DNA from: a virus
DNA: 30,954 nucleotides
Virus record (IMG/VR): IMGVR_UViG_3300047678_000806
Coordinates: 1 to 30,954 of that record
Strand: one strand, 5' to 3'
Each line of letters starts with the position of its first letter. Positions within the stretch are counted from its first letter, which is position 1. Positions 4,995 to 29,461 of the stretch are shown piece after piece. Under the pieces are notes generated by a model, which saw nothing but the letters and a program-made list of their open reading frames with translations, was not told the origin of the DNA and did not search any database. The translations under genes were made by a program, and so were the position numbers.

Positions 4995-5007
4995 CGGAGG
5001 CCCGCTG

Positions 5008-5445
5008 ATGGGCGGCGGGGGCGGCGGGACGCTGGGCACCCTGGCACGCGTGGCCACGGCCGTGACGACCTTCGGTCTGTCCGAGGCTCCCGGCGCGGTC
5101 GGGAAGACCGCGCGCGACGCCGCCGGCGTGATGGCGCTGACCAACCCCGCCTCCGCACTCAGCTACGGCACCGCCGTCGCCGCGCGTACCGCGCAGGGAG
5201 TGGCCACTGCTCCGCAGAACGCCGCCAACGCCGCCTCGGAAGCCGCGGCCAAGCAGAACCAGGCGCAGGCCGACCTGCTCAACCAGATCAAGCTGCAGCC
5301 GCAGGTGGTCCAGCCGGACAACTTCCAGGCGACGAAGAACAGGCAGCTCAACAGCCTGCGCATGGGCATCGCGGCCACCATGAAGTACGGCGGCGCGGCG
5401 CCCATCACCGCCGCGCCCACGCTGAAGACGAAGTTGGGGCAATAG
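5008..5445 (+). CDS. Hypothetical virion-module protein, 145 aa
   Basis: Starts at ATG 5008, eight bases after CGGAGG. The N-terminus is MGGGGGG, followed by Ala-rich segments (ARTAQGVATAPQNAANAASE) and a C-terminus NRQLNSLRMGIAATMKYGG, then LKTKLGQ. Podoviruses often have a small protein of this style just before the portal, with Gly-rich start and a short conserved tail. Its role is unknown; a minor head protein is likely from position. First gene after the leader, four bases from the portal start. Confidence 0.75.
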   Translation: MGGGGGGTLGTLARVATAVTTFGLSEAPGAVGKTARDAAGVMALTNPASALSYGTAVAARTAQGVATAPQNAANAASEAAAKQNQAQADLLNQIKLQPQVVQPDNFQATKNRQLNSLRMGIAATMKYGGAAPITAAPTLKTKLGQ

Positions 5446-5448
5446 ACC

Positions 5449-7224
5449 ATGGATGTCAACGCGGGCATCCCCGACTCGAACCAGCCCAGCTACGGCGAGG
5501 GCTCCGGCACGGGCGACAAGGACAAGCGCGCCGCGGGAAAGCCGCAGTTCGACCTGGGCAGCAAGATGTCCGCCGTCAGCCAGCGCTGGGCCGCGCTGAG
5601 GACCGAGGCGCTGTCCAAGTGGTACCCCATCCTGCGCGAGATCAGCCTGTACCTGATGCCCAAGCGCGGCTTCTTCGAAGGGCAGATGCCCAACTGGGGC
5701 ACGCGCATCGACCACAAGCGCATCATGGACAGCGCGCCGCGCAACCACCTGCGCACGCTGGCGTCGGGCCTGATGAGCGGTCTGAGCGACCCGTCCAAGC
5801 TGTGGTTCCGCCTGGAGATCGACGACCCCGAGGCCATGAAGGAGGACGACGCGAAGGCGTGGCTGGAGAACGCCACGAAGAAGACGCACCGCGCCTTCCA
5901 GGAGTCGGACATCTACTCCGCGTTCTACTCCGGCTACGAGGAAGTGGCCGGCTTCGGCGTCAATGCGTTCATCCTGTTGGAGAACGCGAAGACGGTGGTC
6001 CGTCCGCGCACCTTCACGGCGGGCGAATACTTCCTGGGCCGCTCCGCGGAGGGCGTGGTCAACGCGTTCGCGCGCCAGTTCTGGATGACGGGCGGACAGC
6101 TCATCAAGCAGTTCGGCTACGACAACTGCTCCGCGAATGTGCAGTCCGAGTACAACTCCAACATCCTGGACACCTGGCACCTGGTCTACCACCTGATCGA
6201 GGAGAACGACGACCGCATCCCGGGCCTGCGCGACGCGCAGAACATGGACTTTCGGTCCATCTATTGGGAGGCGAACGTGGACGGCAACACGCGCGCGCTC
6301 CTCGTCAGCGGCTTCGAAGAGTTCCCCGTCATCGCCTCGCGCTGGGACTTCACCACCACGGCCGATGTGTACGGCAACGGACCGGGCTGGGACGTGCTGG
6401 GCGACGTGAAGACGCTCTACAAGCTGGTCAAGAAGTACCTGGAGGCCGTGGACAAGGTGGTGGACCCGCCCATGGTGGCGGACGCCGGCGTGGTGGTCAA
6501 CACGCTCCCCGGCGGGCTCACGCGCGCGTCGTCGCAGGCGCAGGGCGGGGTGAAGGCGGCTTACCAGATCAACCCGGACCTGCCCGCCATCGAGCGCGCC
6601 ATGGACCGGCTGACCAAGAAGATCGGCGACGGGTTCTTCGCGGACTTCTTCCTGATGATCGCCAACGCCGGGCGCGACATGACGGCCGAGGAGGTCATGC
6701 AGCGCCAGGGCGAGAAGCTTCTGATGCTGGGGCCCATCATCCACCGACTCACCAACGAGATGCACCGCCCGGCCATCGAGCGCACCTTCAAGATCCTGGT
6801 CCGCTCCAAGGCGCTGCCGCCTCCGCCGCCGTCCATCGCCGGGCGTCAGCTGCAGATCAAGTACATCTCCATGCTGGCCCAGGCCCAGCAGATGTCCGAG
6901 ACGGCGGTCCTGGAGCAGTTCAACCGCTTCGTGGGCAACTTGGCCGCGGCCAAGCCCGAGGTGCTAGACAACGTGGACTTCGACGAGGAAGTGCGCGTGT
7001 ACGCGGAGCGCATCGGCCTGCCGGCGAAGATCCTGGCGTCAATGGCTTCCATGGCCGCCATGCGCGCCGCGCGCGCCAAGCAGCAGCAGACGGCCGCCGC
7101 CGCGCAAAACGCGCAGGCCGCCGCGTCCACGGCCAAGGTCATGGCGGACACCAAGCTGGGCGGCGGGACCGCCCTGGCCAGCCTGCTGGGCAACGGAACA
7201 CCGCCCCCGGGAGGCGTGGCGTGA
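5449..7224 (+). CDS. Portal (head-to-tail connecting) protein
   Basis: 591 residues, the normal size for the T7-type connector (Head-tail_con family). Recognisable parts are the N-terminal helical region (RWAALRTEALSKWYPILREI), LMPKRGFFEGQMPNWGTR, the segment LASGLMSGLSDPSKLWFRLE, and later IHRLTNEMHRPAIERTFKIL. The C-terminus is Ala/Gln-rich (AKQQQTAAAAQNAQ) and ends in a Gly/Pro tail. Twelve copies form the ring in one capsid vertex through which DNA enters and leaves and to which the tail attaches. The ATG at 5449 lies after GGGG (5436-5440 region). Its stop overlaps the next GTG. Confidence 0.95.
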   Translation: MDVNAGIPDSNQPSYGEGSGTGDKDKRAAGKPQFDLGSKMSAVSQRWAALRTEALSKWYPILREISLYLMPKRGFFEGQMPNWGTRIDHKRIMDSAPRNHLRTLASGLMSGLSDPSKLWFRLEIDDPEAMKEDDAKAWLENATKKTHRAFQESDIYSAFYSGYEEVAGFGVNAFILLENAKTVVRPRTFTAGEYFLGRSAEGVVNAFARQFWMTGGQLIKQFGYDNCSANVQSEYNSNILDTWHLVYHLIEENDDRIPGLRDAQNMDFRSIYWEANVDGNTRALLVSGFEEFPVIASRWDFTTTADVYGNGPGWDVLGDVKTLYKLVKKYLEAVDKVVDPPMVADAGVVVNTLPGGLTRASSQAQGGVKAAYQINPDLPAIERAMDRLTKKIGDGFFADFFLMIANAGRDMTAEEVMQRQGEKLLMLGPIIHRLTNEMHRPAIERTFKILVRSKALPPPPPSIAGRQLQIKYISMLAQAQQMSETAVLEQFNRFVGNLAAAKPEVLDNVDFDEEVRVYAERIGLPAKILASMASMAAMRAARAKQQQTAAAAQNAQAAASTAKVMADTKLGGGTALASLLGNGTPPPGGVA

Positions 7225-10305: not shown

Positions 10306-10836
10306 ATGTACAAGATCGTCGCTTTCAACGACTGCTACAACCACCACGGCCACAGCGAGAAGGGCCGCGTCATCGACGCGAGCGAAGCCGAGCTGCGCGC
10401 CAGCGCCAAGGCCCGCAAGTTGCCGGACACCGCCCTGTTCCCCCTCCCGCACTTCCGCTTCGTCAACGAGGACATGAACAAGAAGGCCCAGGACGCCTTG
10501 GCGAAGCCCAAGGAGGCGGCTAAGCCGGAGGCCGAACCCGAGAAGGCCCCCGAAACCGCGCCCGAGACCGAGAAGAAGGGCAAGCCCGGCAAGAAGGCCC
10601 AGGACGCCTTGGCGAAGCCCAAGGAGGCGGCTAAGCCGGAGGCCGAACCCGAGAAGGCCCCCGAAACCGCGCCCGAGACCGAGAAGAAGGGCAAGCCCGG
10701 CAAGAAGGCCCAGGACGCCTTGGCGAAGCCCAAGGAGGCGGCTAAGCCGGAGGCCGAACCCGAGAAGGCCCCCGAAACCGCGCCCGAGACCGAGAAGAAG
10801 GGCAAGCCCGGCAAGAAGGCCCAGGACGCCGACTGA
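10306..10836 (+). CDS. Lys/Glu/Pro-rich repeat protein
   Basis: 176 residues starting at ATG 10306 after AAGGAG. Residues 1-58 form a unique domain (YKIVAFNDCYNHHGHSEKGR, then LFPLPHFRFVNEDMN). Residues 59-169 are three identical 37-residue repeats made nearly only of Lys, Ala, Pro, Glu and Thr, and a stub KKAQDAD ends the protein. The repeats have mixed charge and are surely disordered. It might be a head-packaged or flexible linker protein, by analogy with Lys/Pro/Ala-rich tails of DNA-binding proteins, but the balancing Glu content argues against plain DNA binding. No family is recognised. It is flanked on both sides by the same hairpin. Confidence 0.8.
   Translation: MYKIVAFNDCYNHHGHSEKGRVIDASEAELRASAKARKLPDTALFPLPHFRFVNEDMNKKAQDALAKPKEAAKPEAEPEKAPETAPETEKKGKPGKKAQDALAKPKEAAKPEAEPEKAPETAPETEKKGKPGKKAQDALAKPKEAAKPEAEPEKAPETAPETEKKGKPGKKAQDAD
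10480..10830 (+). repeat. Three identical 111-bp tandem repeats plus 18-bp stub
   Basis: Units start at 10480, 10591 and 10702 and are identical base for base as far as I can read; a partial fourth unit of 18 bases starts at 10813. Each encodes 37 residues in frame. Lack of any silent difference points to recent copying or ongoing recombination. Assembly from short reads could miscount the copies. Confidence 0.95.
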
Positions 10837-24315: not shown

Positions 24316-24924
24316 ATGAGCGTTGCGTCCCAACAGTCGAAAGTCATCTACGCCGGTGACGGCATCACGACGCTTTTCTCCATCCCCTTCCCGCTGGCCG
24401 ACATGGTCGCGGCCTCCGACCTGCAGGTCTTCTTGGTGGACAACCTGGGCAACGTGACGCTGTTGACCAGCGGCTACACGCCGAACACCGCGACCATGAA
24501 GGTGACTTACCCGAACGTCGGGTCCCCGCTTCCCGTAGGCTACCAGCTGGTGCTGAACCGCTTGGAGCCCATCACGCAGAACAACACTTACACGGACACG
24601 GGCCCCATGCCCGCGAAGTCCGTGGAGGCCGCGCTGGACAAGCTGACCTTCATCTGTCAGCAGCTCGCGGAGCAGATCGCGCGCGCAGTGCTGGTCCCCA
24701 TCAACACGGTCGCGCAAGGCTCGCCCGTGACGCCCCCGACGGTAGCGCCGGTGGGCCTGGTTCAGTTGAACGGGACCTGGGCGCAGGGCGTCTCTTACGC
24801 GCAGGCCAATCCGACCAGCCAGTTCCTCCTGTTCGTTACGACGGGCGACGAGGCTGGACAGTGGTTCTTCTACACGGGCAACGTGGCGCTGGGCAACCAG
24901 GGCTTCTTGGGGGTGGGCGGATGA
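24316..24924 (+). CDS. Tail fiber N-terminal/adaptor protein (T7 gp17 N-terminus-like)
   Basis: 202 residues from ATG 24316. Typical parts are QSKVIYAGDGITTLFSIPFP, then VFLVDNLGNVTLL, YQLVLNRLEPITQNN and LDKLTFICQQLAEQIARAV. This is the conserved head domain that fixes fibers to the T7-type nozzle. Here it ends after a short C-terminal beta segment (QWFFYTGNVALGNQG), so the receptor-binding part must be on another protein, probably the next gene, whose ATG overlaps its TGA. Frame of the next gene is -1 relative to this one. Confidence 0.88.
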   Translation: MSVASQQSKVIYAGDGITTLFSIPFPLADMVAASDLQVFLVDNLGNVTLLTSGYTPNTATMKVTYPNVGSPLPVGYQLVLNRLEPITQNNTYTDTGPMPAKSVEAALDKLTFICQQLAEQIARAVLVPINTVAQGSPVTPPTVAPVGLVQLNGTWAQGVSYAQANPTSQFLLFVTTGDEAGQWFFYTGNVALGNQGFLGVGG

Positions 24925-27296
24925 CGCGACTTCTCCGGGCGCTGGCGCTGCTGGCCGGACTGGCGGTCCCCGCCATGGCCGGGCCGTACTTCACCTCTCC
25001 CGTCACCTCGACCGGGACGGGGACGGCGTGGCAGGCGGTCAACGGCCAATTCTACGTCGGCTCCAGCTCCGTCAGCTACTCGACCGCGAACCCGCAGAAC
25101 GGCAGCACCTGGACCATCACGCTGAACGGCACGAACGGCAACGTGACGGCGACCAAGTTCAACGGATCCGGCGCGGGACTGACCGGCGTTCCCAGCGCGA
25201 GCGCGGTACCTTCCACGGGCGTGCAGAACGGCGCGCTCAATCCGGGCGTCACCGTCTCCACGGCGAACATCGTCCCGGGCTTCAACGGAAACAGCCAGCT
25301 CGTCCAAATGAGCGGCGCCGGCGCTTATCCGGCGGCCAGCGGCGCGGCGCTCACCTCTTTGACGGCGGCGAACATCGCCGGCGGAACGATGGGCTCCGGC
25401 GTGATTCCGACGAACGCAGCCGGCGGCGTGCTGGCCGGAAGCTACCCTTACCCCACCCTGGGGCCCGGCGTCGTGCTGTCCACGCACATCGGCAATTCCG
25501 GCGTCACGGCGGGGAATTATACCGTCGGATTGAATATCGCTCCGCAGTTCAGCGTGAACGCGGCCGGACAGGTCACGGGCGTCACCTACGGGAACATTTC
25601 TTTGACGGACCTCGTGTCGCACACGTTCTCCACAGCCGTCATCAACAGCGGCGGAAAGTTCAGCGACGACAAGGTTGGAATCTCGACCGGCGGGATCACC
25701 GGAGGATTCAACGGGAACAGCCAACTCGTCCAGCTGAGCGGTGCCGGCGCCTACCCCGCGGCGAACGGCGCCGCGATTACCAGCCTCACCGGCGCCAACG
25801 TGACGGGAACGGTTCCGAGTGCCACGAATATCGCGGCGGGCGCTATCGGGCAGCTTCCGTATCAGAGCGGCGCCGGCGTGACGGCGTTCCTTCCGTCCAT
25901 GGCGGCGGCGGGGATTATCGTCGGCAACGGCTCGGGCGTCGTTCCGACGACGGCGACTTTGACCGGAACGGCTAATCAGGTGATCGTCACGCAGACTCCT
26001 ACGGCCGTCACCCTCTCGCTTCCGCAGAGCATCAACAGCGGCGCGACTCCCACTCTGACCGGGACGAACTTCACCGGAATCCCGGAGAGCGGAGTTACGG
26101 GGCTGACGACTGACCTGGCCGCACGCGCGTCCACCGGTACCAGCGTGGCGTTCTCCACCATCGTCATCACGCAGGACGGCGCGTCGGCCGTGGCGATTCC
26201 GAACACTCCGATCTACGCGGTCGGTTCGCCCAACGCGGACTATCAGTTGACGGTCCAGAACAAGAACAACGGTGCGAGCGCTGACGCGGGCTTCCTGGCT
26301 TTGGCCGACAACGGCACGAACAGCACGAACTATCAGTTCTGCGGCGTCAACGGCTCCGGCTACGTCGGCGGGACGAACGGATGGTTCGACGGGCCTGATG
26401 ACGGCACGTGCTACGCGCAGACAGGCAACTTCTCCATCGGCGCCGTCGGAAGTGGCAAAGCCGTCAACTTCTTCGCGGGCGGCACCGCCGCGTCGAACGT
26501 CGTGGCGGTCATGACGAGCACCGGGATGCAAGTCTACCCGTCGCAGTTCAGCGTCGGCGTGACCTCTTTCGTCGTCGCCGGCGGCACGGCCACAGTGGGC
26601 AACGCGCTCGTCGCCAACTACCTCGTCAGCAAGACCGAAGCGGTCATCCTCGGCACGGCCACGGTCTCGGGCAACGCCATGAGCGTCGGCGGGTCCACTT
26701 GGTCCGTCGTTGGCGGCACGGTCACGACCGCCTATCGCGAGCTCGCTCAGAGTTTCATGACGACGGGAGTCAGCACTTTCTCCATCATCAGCTCTAGCGG
26801 CTTGCAATTCGTGACGCCGACGACGGGCATCACCTGGGCCGACGGGACGAAGAGCACGACGGCTTTCACCATCTACGGCTCGTCGTGTATCGAAGTCAAC
26901 AACCTCCCGGCGGGAAGCAGCTCGGCGTCTACCTTCATCACCGGGAGCGCCATCAGCAGCACCTTGACCTTCACGAATCCATCCGGGTATCCGGTGACGA
27001 TCTCGATGGGCGTCAACGCCTCCAACGGAACGGCGGCTGGAAACTGCGTCGTCGCTCCGCTTATCGACAGCACATACACCGACTTGGCCAACCCGCAAGC
27101 CGGCATTCTCAATTCCTTCCCGTCAGCCGGATACGGACCGATGAGCTATCCCCCGCGAGAAGTGCCGCTCGGGACGGGGAATCACACGATGAGTTGGATG
27201 ATCCGCAACACGGGCAGCGGAACCTGCTCGACTTTCAACGACGGCAACAACCAGAACTGGATGCGGGTCTGTCGCCTGCTCGCAGAGCCCTGGTAA
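24921..27296 (+). CDS. Fiber-like protein with N-terminal signal peptide
   Basis: 791 residues. ATG 24921 overlaps the adaptor stop. Residues 1-20 (TRLLRALALLAGLAVPAMA) are a textbook Sec signal peptide with an AMA cleavage site before GPYF. The rest is Gly/Ala/Thr/Ser-rich beta with FNGSGAGLTGV and GITWADGTKSTTAF motifs common in fibers and trimeric surface proteins. Residues 120-155 and 262-297 are related copies (FNGNSQLVQ, SGAGAYPAA). The C-terminus (IRNTGSGTCSTFNDGNNQNW) may be a receptor or folding domain. No Mtd-type variable lectin is recognised. Position says tail fiber; the signal peptide says exported. Both cannot easily be true for a virion part made in the cytoplasm. Confidence 0.75.
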   Translation: MTRLLRALALLAGLAVPAMAGPYFTSPVTSTGTGTAWQAVNGQFYVGSSSVSYSTANPQNGSTWTITLNGTNGNVTATKFNGSGAGLTGVPSASAVPSTGVQNGALNPGVTVSTANIVPGFNGNSQLVQMSGAGAYPAASGAALTSLTAANIAGGTMGSGVIPTNAAGGVLAGSYPYPTLGPGVVLSTHIGNSGVTAGNYTVGLNIAPQFSVNAAGQVTGVTYGNISLTDLVSHTFSTAVINSGGKFSDDKVGISTGGITGGFNGNSQLVQLSGAGAYPAANGAAITSLTGANVTGTVPSATNIAAGAIGQLPYQSGAGVTAFLPSMAAAGIIVGNGSGVVPTTATLTGTANQVIVTQTPTAVTLSLPQSINSGATPTLTGTNFTGIPESGVTGLTTDLAARASTGTSVAFSTIVITQDGASAVAIPNTPIYAVGSPNADYQLTVQNKNNGASADAGFLALADNGTNSTNYQFCGVNGSGYVGGTNGWFDGPDDGTCYAQTGNFSIGAVGSGKAVNFFAGGTAASNVVAVMTSTGMQVYPSQFSVGVTSFVVAGGTATVGNALVANYLVSKTEAVILGTATVSGNAMSVGGSTWSVVGGTVTTAYRELAQSFMTTGVSTFSIISSSGLQFVTPTTGITWADGTKSTTAFTIYGSSCIEVNNLPAGSSSASTFITGSAISSTLTFTNPSGYPVTISMGVNASNGTAAGNCVVAPLIDSTYTDLANPQAGILNSFPSAGYGPMSYPPREVPLGTGNHTMSWMIRNTGSGTCSTFNDGNNQNWMRVCRLLAEPW

Positions 27297-27727: not shown

Positions 27728-28162
27728 ATGAAAGTGAACGCCGTCAAGAAGGTCCTGTTCGTCCTGGCCGCGCTGATCGCGCTGGCCGCGCCTTCGATGG
27801 CGCAGAGCATCGTGACGCAGCCGGTGACGGAGTCCCTGGCGAAAGGACTGAGCTGCGGGCCGGTCAGCATCTCCAGCTACAGCTCCACCAGCGTGGCCAC
27901 GCAGGTTCTGGGCAGCACCTCGGCGACCAACTCGTACTCGTACGTCCGGATCCACGACCTGGACGGCACCGGCAACATCTACGCGAACGATGTCCCGACC
28001 GTCTCCACCACCACGACCGCCGGGACCATGGGCGAGCCCATCTCCAACAGCGGCACCACGGTGAACGTCTTGGACTTCCCGCTGAAGCCGGGCCAGCTGT
28101 GGTACGCGACCTGCGACAAGACGACGGGGCCGTGCACGGCCATCATCTGCAAAGGGCGATGA
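27728..28162 (+). CDS. Exported small protein, 144 aa
   Basis: ATG 27728 follows a perfect AGGAGG (27719-27724), which decides the start. Residues 1-26 (KVNAVKKVLFVLAALIALAA, then PSMAQ) form a clear signal peptide with SMA cleavage. The mature part is Ser/Thr-rich and beta, with HDLDGTGNIYANDV and, near the end, CDKTTGPCTAIIC, Cys residues that could form disulfides in the periplasm. Its target and function are unknown; it could be a phage moron that changes the cell surface. Confidence 0.7.
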   Translation: MKVNAVKKVLFVLAALIALAAPSMAQSIVTQPVTESLAKGLSCGPVSISSYSSTSVATQVLGSTSATNSYSYVRIHDLDGTGNIYANDVPTVSTTTTAGTMGEPISNSGTTVNVLDFPLKPGQLWYATCDKTTGPCTAIICKGR

Positions 28163-28278: not shown

Positions 28279-28442
28279 TAGACCCCGGGCACCTGTTGGC
28301 GCTGCTGACAGGGGCGTTCGGGGGACTCAGTATCAGCATGGCGATTTCGGGGCCTGACGCGGGCGGCGATAAGTGCCTGACCTGCGGAGTCAAGAGACGC
28401 GAACACGAAGGAAAAGACCATCCGTTCAAGGAGAGCGCATGA
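28275..28442 (+). CDS. Small CxxC protein with hydrophobic N-terminus, 55 aa
   Basis: GTG 28275 overlaps the previous TGA (GTGA). Residues 6-25 (HLLALLTGAFGGLSISMAIS) are hydrophobic enough for a membrane helix; then come CLTCGVKRREHEGKDHPF. The C-x-x-C plus two His make a possible zinc site next to the membrane. The stop overlaps the next ATG. Similar tiny Cys/His tails occur in phages but no named family comes to mind. Confidence 0.5.
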   Translation: MIDPGHLLALLTGAFGGLSISMAISGPDAGGDKCLTCGVKRREHEGKDHPFKESA

Positions 28443-29071
28443 AAGGCAAAACGATGGCGTGGTGCGAGAAGCTGCTGGTGATGTTGACGCTGGTGATGGT
28501 CTTCGCGGCCGTGGCGGTCATGCCGGGACACTGCCAGGCCCTCCAGTCCCTGCCCACCGTGAGCGGGACGTCCGTGGACGCGCCGTCGCTGGACCTGTAC
28601 CCGCTGGGCAAGAGCTTCGGCAAGGCCGGCGCCTTCCAGTTCGGCATCGACAAGAGCGCCACGGCGGGCGTGTGCGGCGGCTACGACATCCCCGACCACA
28701 TCTTCCTGGCCGGCCCCTGCCGGGATCTCCTGGTCATGGCGCACGCGGGAAAGCCGGTGGCGCACCTGGGCGGCTTCGTGGGCTACGGCCTGGCCGACAT
28801 CAACCGCAGCCATCCGTACTGGAGCGGTCGCGCGGGCATCAACACCGGCGGGTTCCTTTCCGCGGGCCTGAGCAAGCTGGCTGACGACGTGCCCTACTTC
28901 GACGCGCTGAGCGCGTACCAGGCCCCTGCCTGGGTGAGCTACGCGGGCAAGATCACCACGCTGGACTACTTCGTGGGGTACAACGGCCACTGGGTCCACG
29001 GACCCGGTCTGAAGGCGGACATACCGCTCGCGGATTTGCTGGCCCTGATCACCGCTGCCGGCGGGAAGTAA
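28439..29071 (+). CDS. Exported protein, 210 aa, possibly beta-rich
   Basis: ATG 28439 follows AAGGAG (28427-28432) and overlaps the previous stop. Residues 1-33 have a basic start and hydrophobic core (LLVMLTLVMVFAAVAVMPG) with likely cleavage after HCQA; the Cys lies in PGHC, not a proper lipobox. The mature part contains repeated Gly/aromatic strands (GGFVGYGLADINRS, GRAGINTGGFLSAGL, LDYFVGYNGHWVHG), reminiscent of short beta-hairpins of an outer-membrane or surface protein. Function unknown; superinfection exclusion or receptor masking is a possibility from location only. Confidence 0.65.
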   Translation: MKGKTMAWCEKLLVMLTLVMVFAAVAVMPGHCQALQSLPTVSGTSVDAPSLDLYPLGKSFGKAGAFQFGIDKSATAGVCGGYDIPDHIFLAGPCRDLLVMAHAGKPVAHLGGFVGYGLADINRSHPYWSGRAGINTGGFLSAGLSKLADDVPYFDALSAYQAPAWVSYAGKITTLDYFVGYNGHWVHGPGLKADIPLADLLALITAAGGK

Positions 29072-29077
29072 CGTCCC

Positions 29078-29461
29078 ATGACCCTCGGCCTGAGCTCTGA
29101 TCAGGTTGTCGCGATATGCGCTGTCCTCGGCGTCGCGGGGACTGTCATCGCGTGGGTGCTGAGGAACAAGGACGCGGCGCAGGAGCTGGAAATCAAGACG
29201 ATGAAGGAGCGCCAGGCCGATTTGAAATCGAACCTGGACACGGCCTGGCGCAAGATCGACGAGCTGCGCGAGGGCCGCGGCGCGATGTGGACGCGCGTGG
29301 AACAGAAGGAGTTCGAGAATAAGATCGAGACGACGACCAAGGACCTGCGCTCGGAGATCCGGGCCGACTTGGAAACGCTCGGCTCGCGGCTGTCCGGTGA
29401 CCTGGCGAACCTGGGGAACCGTCTCGACAACAGCATCCGCGAGCTGATGAGCAAGCGGTAA
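29078..29461 (+). CDS. One-helix membrane protein with coiled coil, 127 aa
   Basis: Starts at ATG 29078. Residues 8-27 (DQVVAICAVLGVAGTVIAWV) form one membrane helix, and from residue 30 onward a long charged coiled coil follows (LEIKTMKERQADLKSNLDTA, then ETLGSRLSGDLANLGNRLDN). This architecture fits inner-membrane spanins (Rz-like) or holin-associated proteins, but no partner outer-membrane lipoprotein is seen. Lysis role is an inference from fold and place. Confidence 0.65.
   Translation: MTLGLSSDQVVAICAVLGVAGTVIAWVLRNKDAAQELEIKTMKERQADLKSNLDTAWRKIDELREGRGAMWTRVEQKEFENKIETTTKDLRSEIRADLETLGSRLSGDLANLGNRLDNSIRELMSKR

Follow-up and report, generated by a model that had tools for sequence, protein, structure and literature searches.

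In phage T5 the gene for the exported lipoprotein Llp is adjacent to, and downstream of, that for the receptor-binding protein pb5; the passages of PMC9586334 that concern Llp describe an intramolecular disulfide and in vivo work suggesting a periplasmic location. According to the relevant passage of PMC12309495, lom of phage lambda is flanked by tail genes and encodes a signal-peptide-bearing protein of the outer membrane. Here we analyse P0001, a gene in a 30,954-base stretch of viral DNA (IMG/VR record IMGVR_UViG_3300047678_000806, one strand; this whole stretch is called the window), which is a contig of a T7-like short-tailed phage with a G+C content of 67% and in which a PHROGs search recognises terminase, protease, major capsid protein and tail genes. 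P0001 encodes a fibre-like protein of 791 amino acids (aa) that begins with a Sec signal peptide and directly follows the gene for a short tail-fibre adaptor. Judging from its sequence, the protein is very probably exported, and exported fibre-like proteins seem to form a scattered class that is almost unremarked in print; in the titles and abstracts of the open-licence literature that we searched, signal peptides on fibre-like phage proteins are undescribed as a class.

The signal peptide and start site of P0001

The original prediction had assigned to P0001 a clear signal peptide with an AMA site, and this assignment holds. Residues 1–20 comprise a basic n-region (R3, R6), an uncharged hydrophobic core (h-region) and A-M-A preceding G21, and no further transmembrane stretch was found in P0001 beyond the signal, so that all the sequence features of a Sec substrate of signal peptidase I (n-region, h-region, A-x-A and no later membrane span) are present. 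Tat substrates are marked by a twin-arginine motif in the n-region, and that of P0001 (MTRLLR) has, by eye, no RR; nor is there a lipobox with its Cys at +1, residue 21 being Gly and the first Cys residue 474.

Signals were graded with a home-made Sec scorer that looks for (i) a basic n-region, (ii) an uncharged hydrophobic core and (iii) small residues at -3 and -1, with a threshold of at least 4.0. The scorer was calibrated on three 50-kb stretches of Escherichia coli K-12, where the threshold was reached by 17/17 Sec proteins (a set of our own choosing, based in part on product names), 6/35 inner-membrane proteins and 0/92 cytosolic proteins, two of the last giving scores, both under 4.0. 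The score of P0001 (5.22) is far above that of the controls: among 20,000 N-termini drawn at random with the composition of the window 0.36% reached 4.0 and 0.02% reached 5.22, among 5,143 internal stretches of window proteins 0.19% reached 4.0 and none 5.22, and among genes upstream of the adaptor in related phages 2/209 reached 4.0.

The gene lies at 24921–27296, as first given. The start at 24921 is supported because the ATG overlaps the adaptor stop as ATGA, because its Shine-Dalgarno-like site is stronger than that of the inner in-frame ATG at Met19 (duplex energy -9.7 vs -5.5 kcal/mol), and because the G+C content at third codon positions (GC3) of the signal part is an ordinary 0.85, the same as in the remainder of the gene. 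The body of the protein is as fibre-like as first described, being poor in charge (4.6% K/R/D/E) and rich in G/S/T/N/A (58%), and P0001 thus combines a signal, such a body and a place in the tail/lysis region, the architecture by which exported fibre-like proteins were recognised here. The adaptor, for its part, does end without a receptor-binding part: its residues 1–125 match N-terminal adaptor domains (phrog_1640, 9.7e-20), and the chain then stops. Barring a frameshift fusion, adaptor and receptor-binding part are not joined in one chain, as they would be in an adaptor-fused tail fibre, the adaptor having its stop at 24924 and P0001 a separate start.

Recurrence in other phages

By tblastn the adaptor matched 61 phage records. 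We assembled 91 adaptor loci, made up of the best 80 of 530 confirmed in the viral collection (which seem to hold near-duplicates, e.g. L050/L051 and L107/L110/L113), the window, three viral contigs and seven of the 61 phage records; 67/91 have at least 1.5 kb of downstream sequence. A signal-peptide gene of at least 200 aa was found downstream of the adaptor at nine loci, two of which were excluded as not fibre-like (L046, a TTG-start frame, and L123, with 16% charged residues). The seven that remain (7/91) are the window, L037 (BcepC6B gp19), L043 (MW202898), L049, L080, L103 and L119, and in the first three and L103 the signal-peptide gene overlaps the end of the adaptor gene or starts within 20 nucleotides (nt) of it. 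Short adaptors, of at most 335 aa, account for 19 of the 84 adaptor frames with a stop; a signal-peptide fibre comes directly next only in the window and in MW202898, where it overlaps a 305-aa adaptor, and the remaining short adaptors are followed by small genes or by fibre modules without a signal.

A larger family, that of BcepC6B gp19, was seeded with gp19, PBR31 orf35 and two contig proteins and followed in the best 80 of 140 loci in the viral collection. In these 80, 75 proteins score at least 4.0 and five 3.72–3.78, with the ranking query including the signal part (the patterns used for scanning were from the mature part) and with the best-scoring start taken in each case, which in L156, L158, L172 and L174 lies upstream of the likely Met. 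Across 65 distinct members, identity is 31% in the last 18 residues of the signal and 76% in the first 32 mature residues; the sequence of the signal is thus free while its character is kept, as a working signal peptide would show. In 58/66 distinct members there is no in-frame ATG or GTG near the cleavage site that could bypass the signal. Cysteine counts are mostly even in the family (48 even, 9 odd, 9 zero; 40/7/6 when clustered), which fits periplasmic disulfides, and are more mixed in signal-less adaptor-fused fibres (27 even, 21 odd, 7 zero; 27/18/5 when clustered), although relatives are not independent and the contrast is weaker once they are clustered.

The C-terminal domain of the gp19 family, of about 140 residues, was found by iterated hidden Markov model search in 60 signal-peptide-scored proteins (the gp19 family and L033), as well as in three more gp19-family frames (L130, L144 and L103) whose longest start hides the signal. 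It also occurs in signal-less fibres (adaptor-fused L052, T7-like KpV74 gp48, Peat1 gp48) and in separate fibres behind a short adaptor (L082, L091, L105). One receptor-binding-type domain thus occurs behind virion-binding N-termini and behind secretion signals. The genes upstream of the family differ widely and include spikes and holin-type genes, the gene taken as upstream neighbour containing an eps15-type adaptor at 3/80 loci. No sequence similarity of P0001 to this family was detected: gp19-family proteins are absent from its phmmer list, and its mature part begins GPYFTSPV in place of the family motif ATL-x-P-x-QLLNPAGS.

BcepC6B gp19 and PBR31 orf35 are annotated as tail fiber protein and putative structural protein, respectively, and the passages of PMC10975493 that deal with gp35 do not mention a signal. 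Bcep1 gp51 (score 5.43) adjoins baseplate genes, and its GenBank depositor noted 'possible tail fiber; possible signal peptide domain'. A frame of 687 aa in Shewanella phage QDWS (4998–7058 of L210) is likewise fibre-like and begins with a signal peptide, and BgManors32 gp48 has a similar look with a score of 3.59, below the threshold. Signals on fibre-like phage genes are thus scattered, not rare, and the earlier judgement that each option for P0001 would be unusual was too strong.

Some further arrangements were seen at these loci. In place of the 4998–7058 frame, the QDWS record annotates a shorter frame and, in antisense, a hypothetical protein. L155 (3101–7103) has a tandem pair of fibre-like genes with signal peptides, whose products are 41% identical across 184 residues, and L033 (1623–8872), a 40-kb viral contig, has about five tandem genes with signal-peptide-like N-termini, three of which have a common Cys-containing N-terminal domain (31–41% identical). 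At L034 (4088–4128) a 1,450-codon frame is separated from its signal-peptide start by a one-base shift in an A7 run, through either an assembly error or phase-variable slippage.

Predicted export, proposed receptor masking and the alternatives

From the start site, the signal, its recurrence and the sharing of domains, we infer export, periplasmic folding and receptor masking, as follows. P0001 would be a late gene whose translation is coupled to the adaptor stop; its first 20 residues would direct Sec translocation and be cut off by signal peptidase I between AMA and G, and the mature fibre-like protein would fold in the periplasm. A secretion signal would stand where the virion-binding domain is otherwise expected, in genes that unrelated phages carry next to those for tail and lysis. 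The receptor-binding-like part may, at a late stage of infection and then on the debris of lysed cells, occupy an envelope receptor or glycan and so keep progeny from being lost to the dying cell, an effect that would, by analogy, resemble that of T5 Llp, the nearest tested precedent, and be built from fibre parts. Among the three options that the original prediction had set out, export is the best supported, by start site, score and recurrence, with capture of a host gene and an inner start less so. If P0001 is exported, the chance that it masks a receptor is close to even; that it is truly an exported fibre-like protein acting in the envelope or lysate, most likely by masking the receptor late in infection, we propose tentatively, at slightly less than even. 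The other annotated fibre or spike beside the signal-peptide protein in BcepC6B, PBR31 and QDWS, and the second fibre protein named besides gp51 in Bcep1, favour such an accessory job.

Several results weigh against this proposal. First, no receptor-binding protein other than P0001 was seen in the window, which suits a role in the virion. Second, the N- and C-terminal parts of P0001 have no homologue, and the argument from the class therefore rests on analogy of architecture; at the level of sequence, P0001 differs from the other members in having no detectable homology outside its middle domain. The whole protein had no match in 50,697 phage records, none among solved structures by sequence at E<=1, and weak ones only in Pfam and PHROGs (DUF1869, 0.017, below its cut-off; phrog_417, 0.014). 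The homology search of the C-terminal part that the original prediction had proposed was run, and the viral collection gave no confirmed relative of it or of the full protein, sub-domain matches being weak. Third, the AlphaFold2 model of the C-terminal part (predicted local distance difference test, pLDDT, 34.5) did not recover a receptor-binding fold. Fourth, in a decoy test only 9/90 signal-peptide proteins matched another frame of their own locus (L136; L175, L177 and L180, which are one architecture; L198 and L205; L155; and L033 twice). In L155 and L033 the partner is an adjacent gene that itself has a signal peptide; among the remaining six, a C-terminal part in common with a long frame of fibre size was seen in L198 and L205 only. 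The idea of a decoy derived by copying the fibre of the phage itself was accordingly set aside as a general model.

Other readings were weighed against masking by an exported protein. It is unlikely, in our view, that P0001 is a surface or conversion protein, assembled from shaft modules that are also found in bacterial surface proteins, either displayed by infected or lysogenic cells or released from them, with a part in adhesion, biofilm or exclusion, and unrelated to the virion. In its favour, the middle domain is found at 17 Bacteroidetes loci, mostly in long proteins with a signal-peptide start, and lom, as presented in the passage cited above, is a signal-peptide gene of the outer membrane among tail genes. 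However, phage proteins carry the middle domain in about equally close form. One of them is L015, which is 303 aa long, lacks a signal peptide, is encoded just past a terminase-like gene, recurs as L035 and has a relative in L036; signal-peptide proteins of the viral contigs L033 and L034 have the domain too. Per-domain phmmer values were 2e-12 for L015 and 1.2e-11 for L033, then 1.2e-10 for Bacteroidetes L017, and whole-protein values were equally low for multi-copy Bacteroidetes proteins (e.g. L018, 1.3e-12). A Cys pair of L033 and L034, absent from L015, L036 and the aligned Bacteroidetes copies, corresponds to Cys474 and Cys497 of P0001. The AlphaFold2 model of this domain was mediocre (pLDDT 63.2), and Foldseek returned nothing at E<=0.001. 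Wholesale capture of a host surface gene, as first suggested, is less well supported, the middle domain being the only part that P0001 has in common with these Bacteroidetes proteins. Moreover, no lipobox is visible and an outer-membrane anchor was not recognised, with no predictor search for one made. An outer-membrane beta-barrel of the Lom kind would be marked by membrane strands and a C-terminal beta-signal; P0001 ends in ...RVCRLLAEPW, with Trp as its last residue.

Rather less likely again is that P0001 is exported, folds and forms disulfides in the periplasm, encounters virions with their adaptor only when the cell lyses, and serves as the receptor-binding protein of this phage. The adaptor without a receptor-binding part and the like arrangement in MW202898 are consistent with such a course, and since no other receptor-binding protein is visible in the window, this phage may assemble the fibre on the adaptor after lysis. 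In BcepC6B, PBR31, Bcep1 and QDWS, however, the other fibre or spike makes the signal-peptide protein an extra one, and the varied upstream genes of the gp19 family are unlike those expected of a part bound to one virion site. That the only receptor-binding protein should be made outside the cytoplasm, and the assembly of a tailed-phage virion finished after lysis, strikes us as quite improbable.

We also consider it improbable that P0001 is an ordinary cytoplasmic virion fibre, its signal lost through a start at Met19 or buried through a frameshift. Met19 is present, but its Shine-Dalgarno site is the weaker one and most gp19-family members have no usable inner ATG or GTG, which speaks against the inner start that the original prediction had considered. 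Fusion to the adaptor, also considered there, retains part of its case: read backwards, the P0001 frame stays open as far as 24360, through most of the adaptor gene, and the G5 run at 24909–24913, just before the adaptor stop, is the sole obvious slippery spot at which a -1 frameshift would join adaptor and P0001. Long out-of-frame openings are, however, common at 67% G+C, fusion would bury the hydrophobic stretch within the fibre, and the ATGA coupling and stronger Shine-Dalgarno site at 24921 point to a separate start. Finally, it is very improbable that the N-terminus is no signal peptide and is rich in Leu and Ala by chance, the genome being rich in G+C. Both residues are frequent in this phage, and the scorer was built in house, but the score is reached by 2e-4 of random N-termini and by 0/5,143 internal windows, and fibre-like genes that are unrelated have a signal in the same place.

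Annotation routinely treats fibre-like genes as coding for virion receptor-binding proteins, and host-range prediction makes use of them. If some are secreted, such annotations would be wrong, and phages would have an exported layer of receptor-binding-type proteins, serving in masking, as decoys, in adhesion or in post-lysis assembly. Their role is directly testable in the cultured phages BcepC6B, PBR31, Bcep1 and Shewanella phage QDWS.

Neighbouring genes and known systems

The features of the window are collected in Table 1. Three signal-peptide genes, P0001 and the two that follow it, lie inside 4.2 kb between the adaptor and the gene at 29078, and the latter two were matchless in the phage-collection search; with export predicted for all, the three may constitute an export cassette of the late region. 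The gene at 29078 has a weak spanin likeness (phrog_739, 1.3e-4) and a better match to phrog_1009, of unknown function. Beside the tail genes, positions 10306–10836 encode a protein of 176 aa in which KKAQDALAKPKEAAKPEAEPEKAPETAPETEKKGKPG is present in three nearly identical copies. No tRNA gene was found in the window.

Table 1. Positions of the adaptor, of P0001 and its parts, and of neighbouring signal-peptide genes in the window
Feature	Position	Strand	Remarks
Short tail-fibre adaptor, 202 aa	24316..24924	+	residues 1–125 match the eps15/BcepC6B-type fibre N-terminal domain
GGGGGTG, Shine-Dalgarno-like site for ATG 24921	24909..24915	+	duplex energy -9.7 kcal/mol with anti-Shine-Dalgarno
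P0001, 791 aa, fibre-like, with a Sec signal peptide at its N-terminus	24921..27296	+	overlaps adaptor stop as ATGA
Signal peptide, residues 1–20 (MTRLLRALALLAGLAVPAMA, then GPYF)	24921..24980	+	score 5.22; predicted cleavage before G21
Inner in-frame ATG (Met19), possible late start	24975..24977	+	duplex energy -5.5 kcal/mol
36-residue repeat, copy 1 (GFNGNSQLVQMSGAGAYPAA...)	25278..25385	+	29/36 identical to copy 2
36-residue repeat, copy 2 (GFNGNSQLVQLSGAGAYPAA...)	25704..25811	+	pairs with copy 1
Middle domain (DNGTNSTNYQFCGVN...DGTCYAQ), about residues 424–537	26235..26554	+	common to phage and Bacteroidetes surface-type proteins
C-terminal domain, Cys656, 709, 769 and 784	26841..27296	+	no relative found; AlphaFold2 pLDDT 34.5
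Second signal-peptide gene, 144 aa (MKVNAVKKVLFVLAALIALAAPSMA, then QSIV)	27728..28162	+	score 6.39; four Cys in mature part
Third signal-peptide gene, 210 aa (MKGKTMAWCEKLLVMLTLVMVFAAVAVMPGHCQA...)	28439..29071	+	score 6.15

Akin to the superinfection-exclusion lipoproteins Llp and Cor, as the passages at hand describe them, P0001 would be exported (a prediction in its case) from a gene near a receptor-binding or tail-fibre gene; those are small lipoproteins, however, whereas P0001 is a fibre-like protein of 791 aa without a lipobox. Lom resembles it in being encoded by a signal-peptide gene among tail genes, but is described as a beta-barrel in the passage concerned (PMC12309495), whereas P0001 is fibre-like. 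Bcep1 gp51 likewise has a signal peptide on a fibre-like protein, in a phage that, unlike that of the window, has baseplate-wedge genes and is not short-tailed, and homology between gp51 and P0001 was unseen in the phage-collection search. BcepC6B gp19 and PBR31 orf35 have the same order of a signal peptide and then low-charge fibre-like sequence, and lie 5 nt and 11 nt, respectively, past a fibre/spike gene and ahead of the holin; that fibre or spike is full-length, whereas P0001 adjoins a bare adaptor. The window adaptor is in turn the N-terminal domain of the adaptor-fused eps15/BcepC6B-type fibres, which carry it in the same chain, whereas in the window the fibre has its own gene, which opens with a secretion signal in the adaptor's place.

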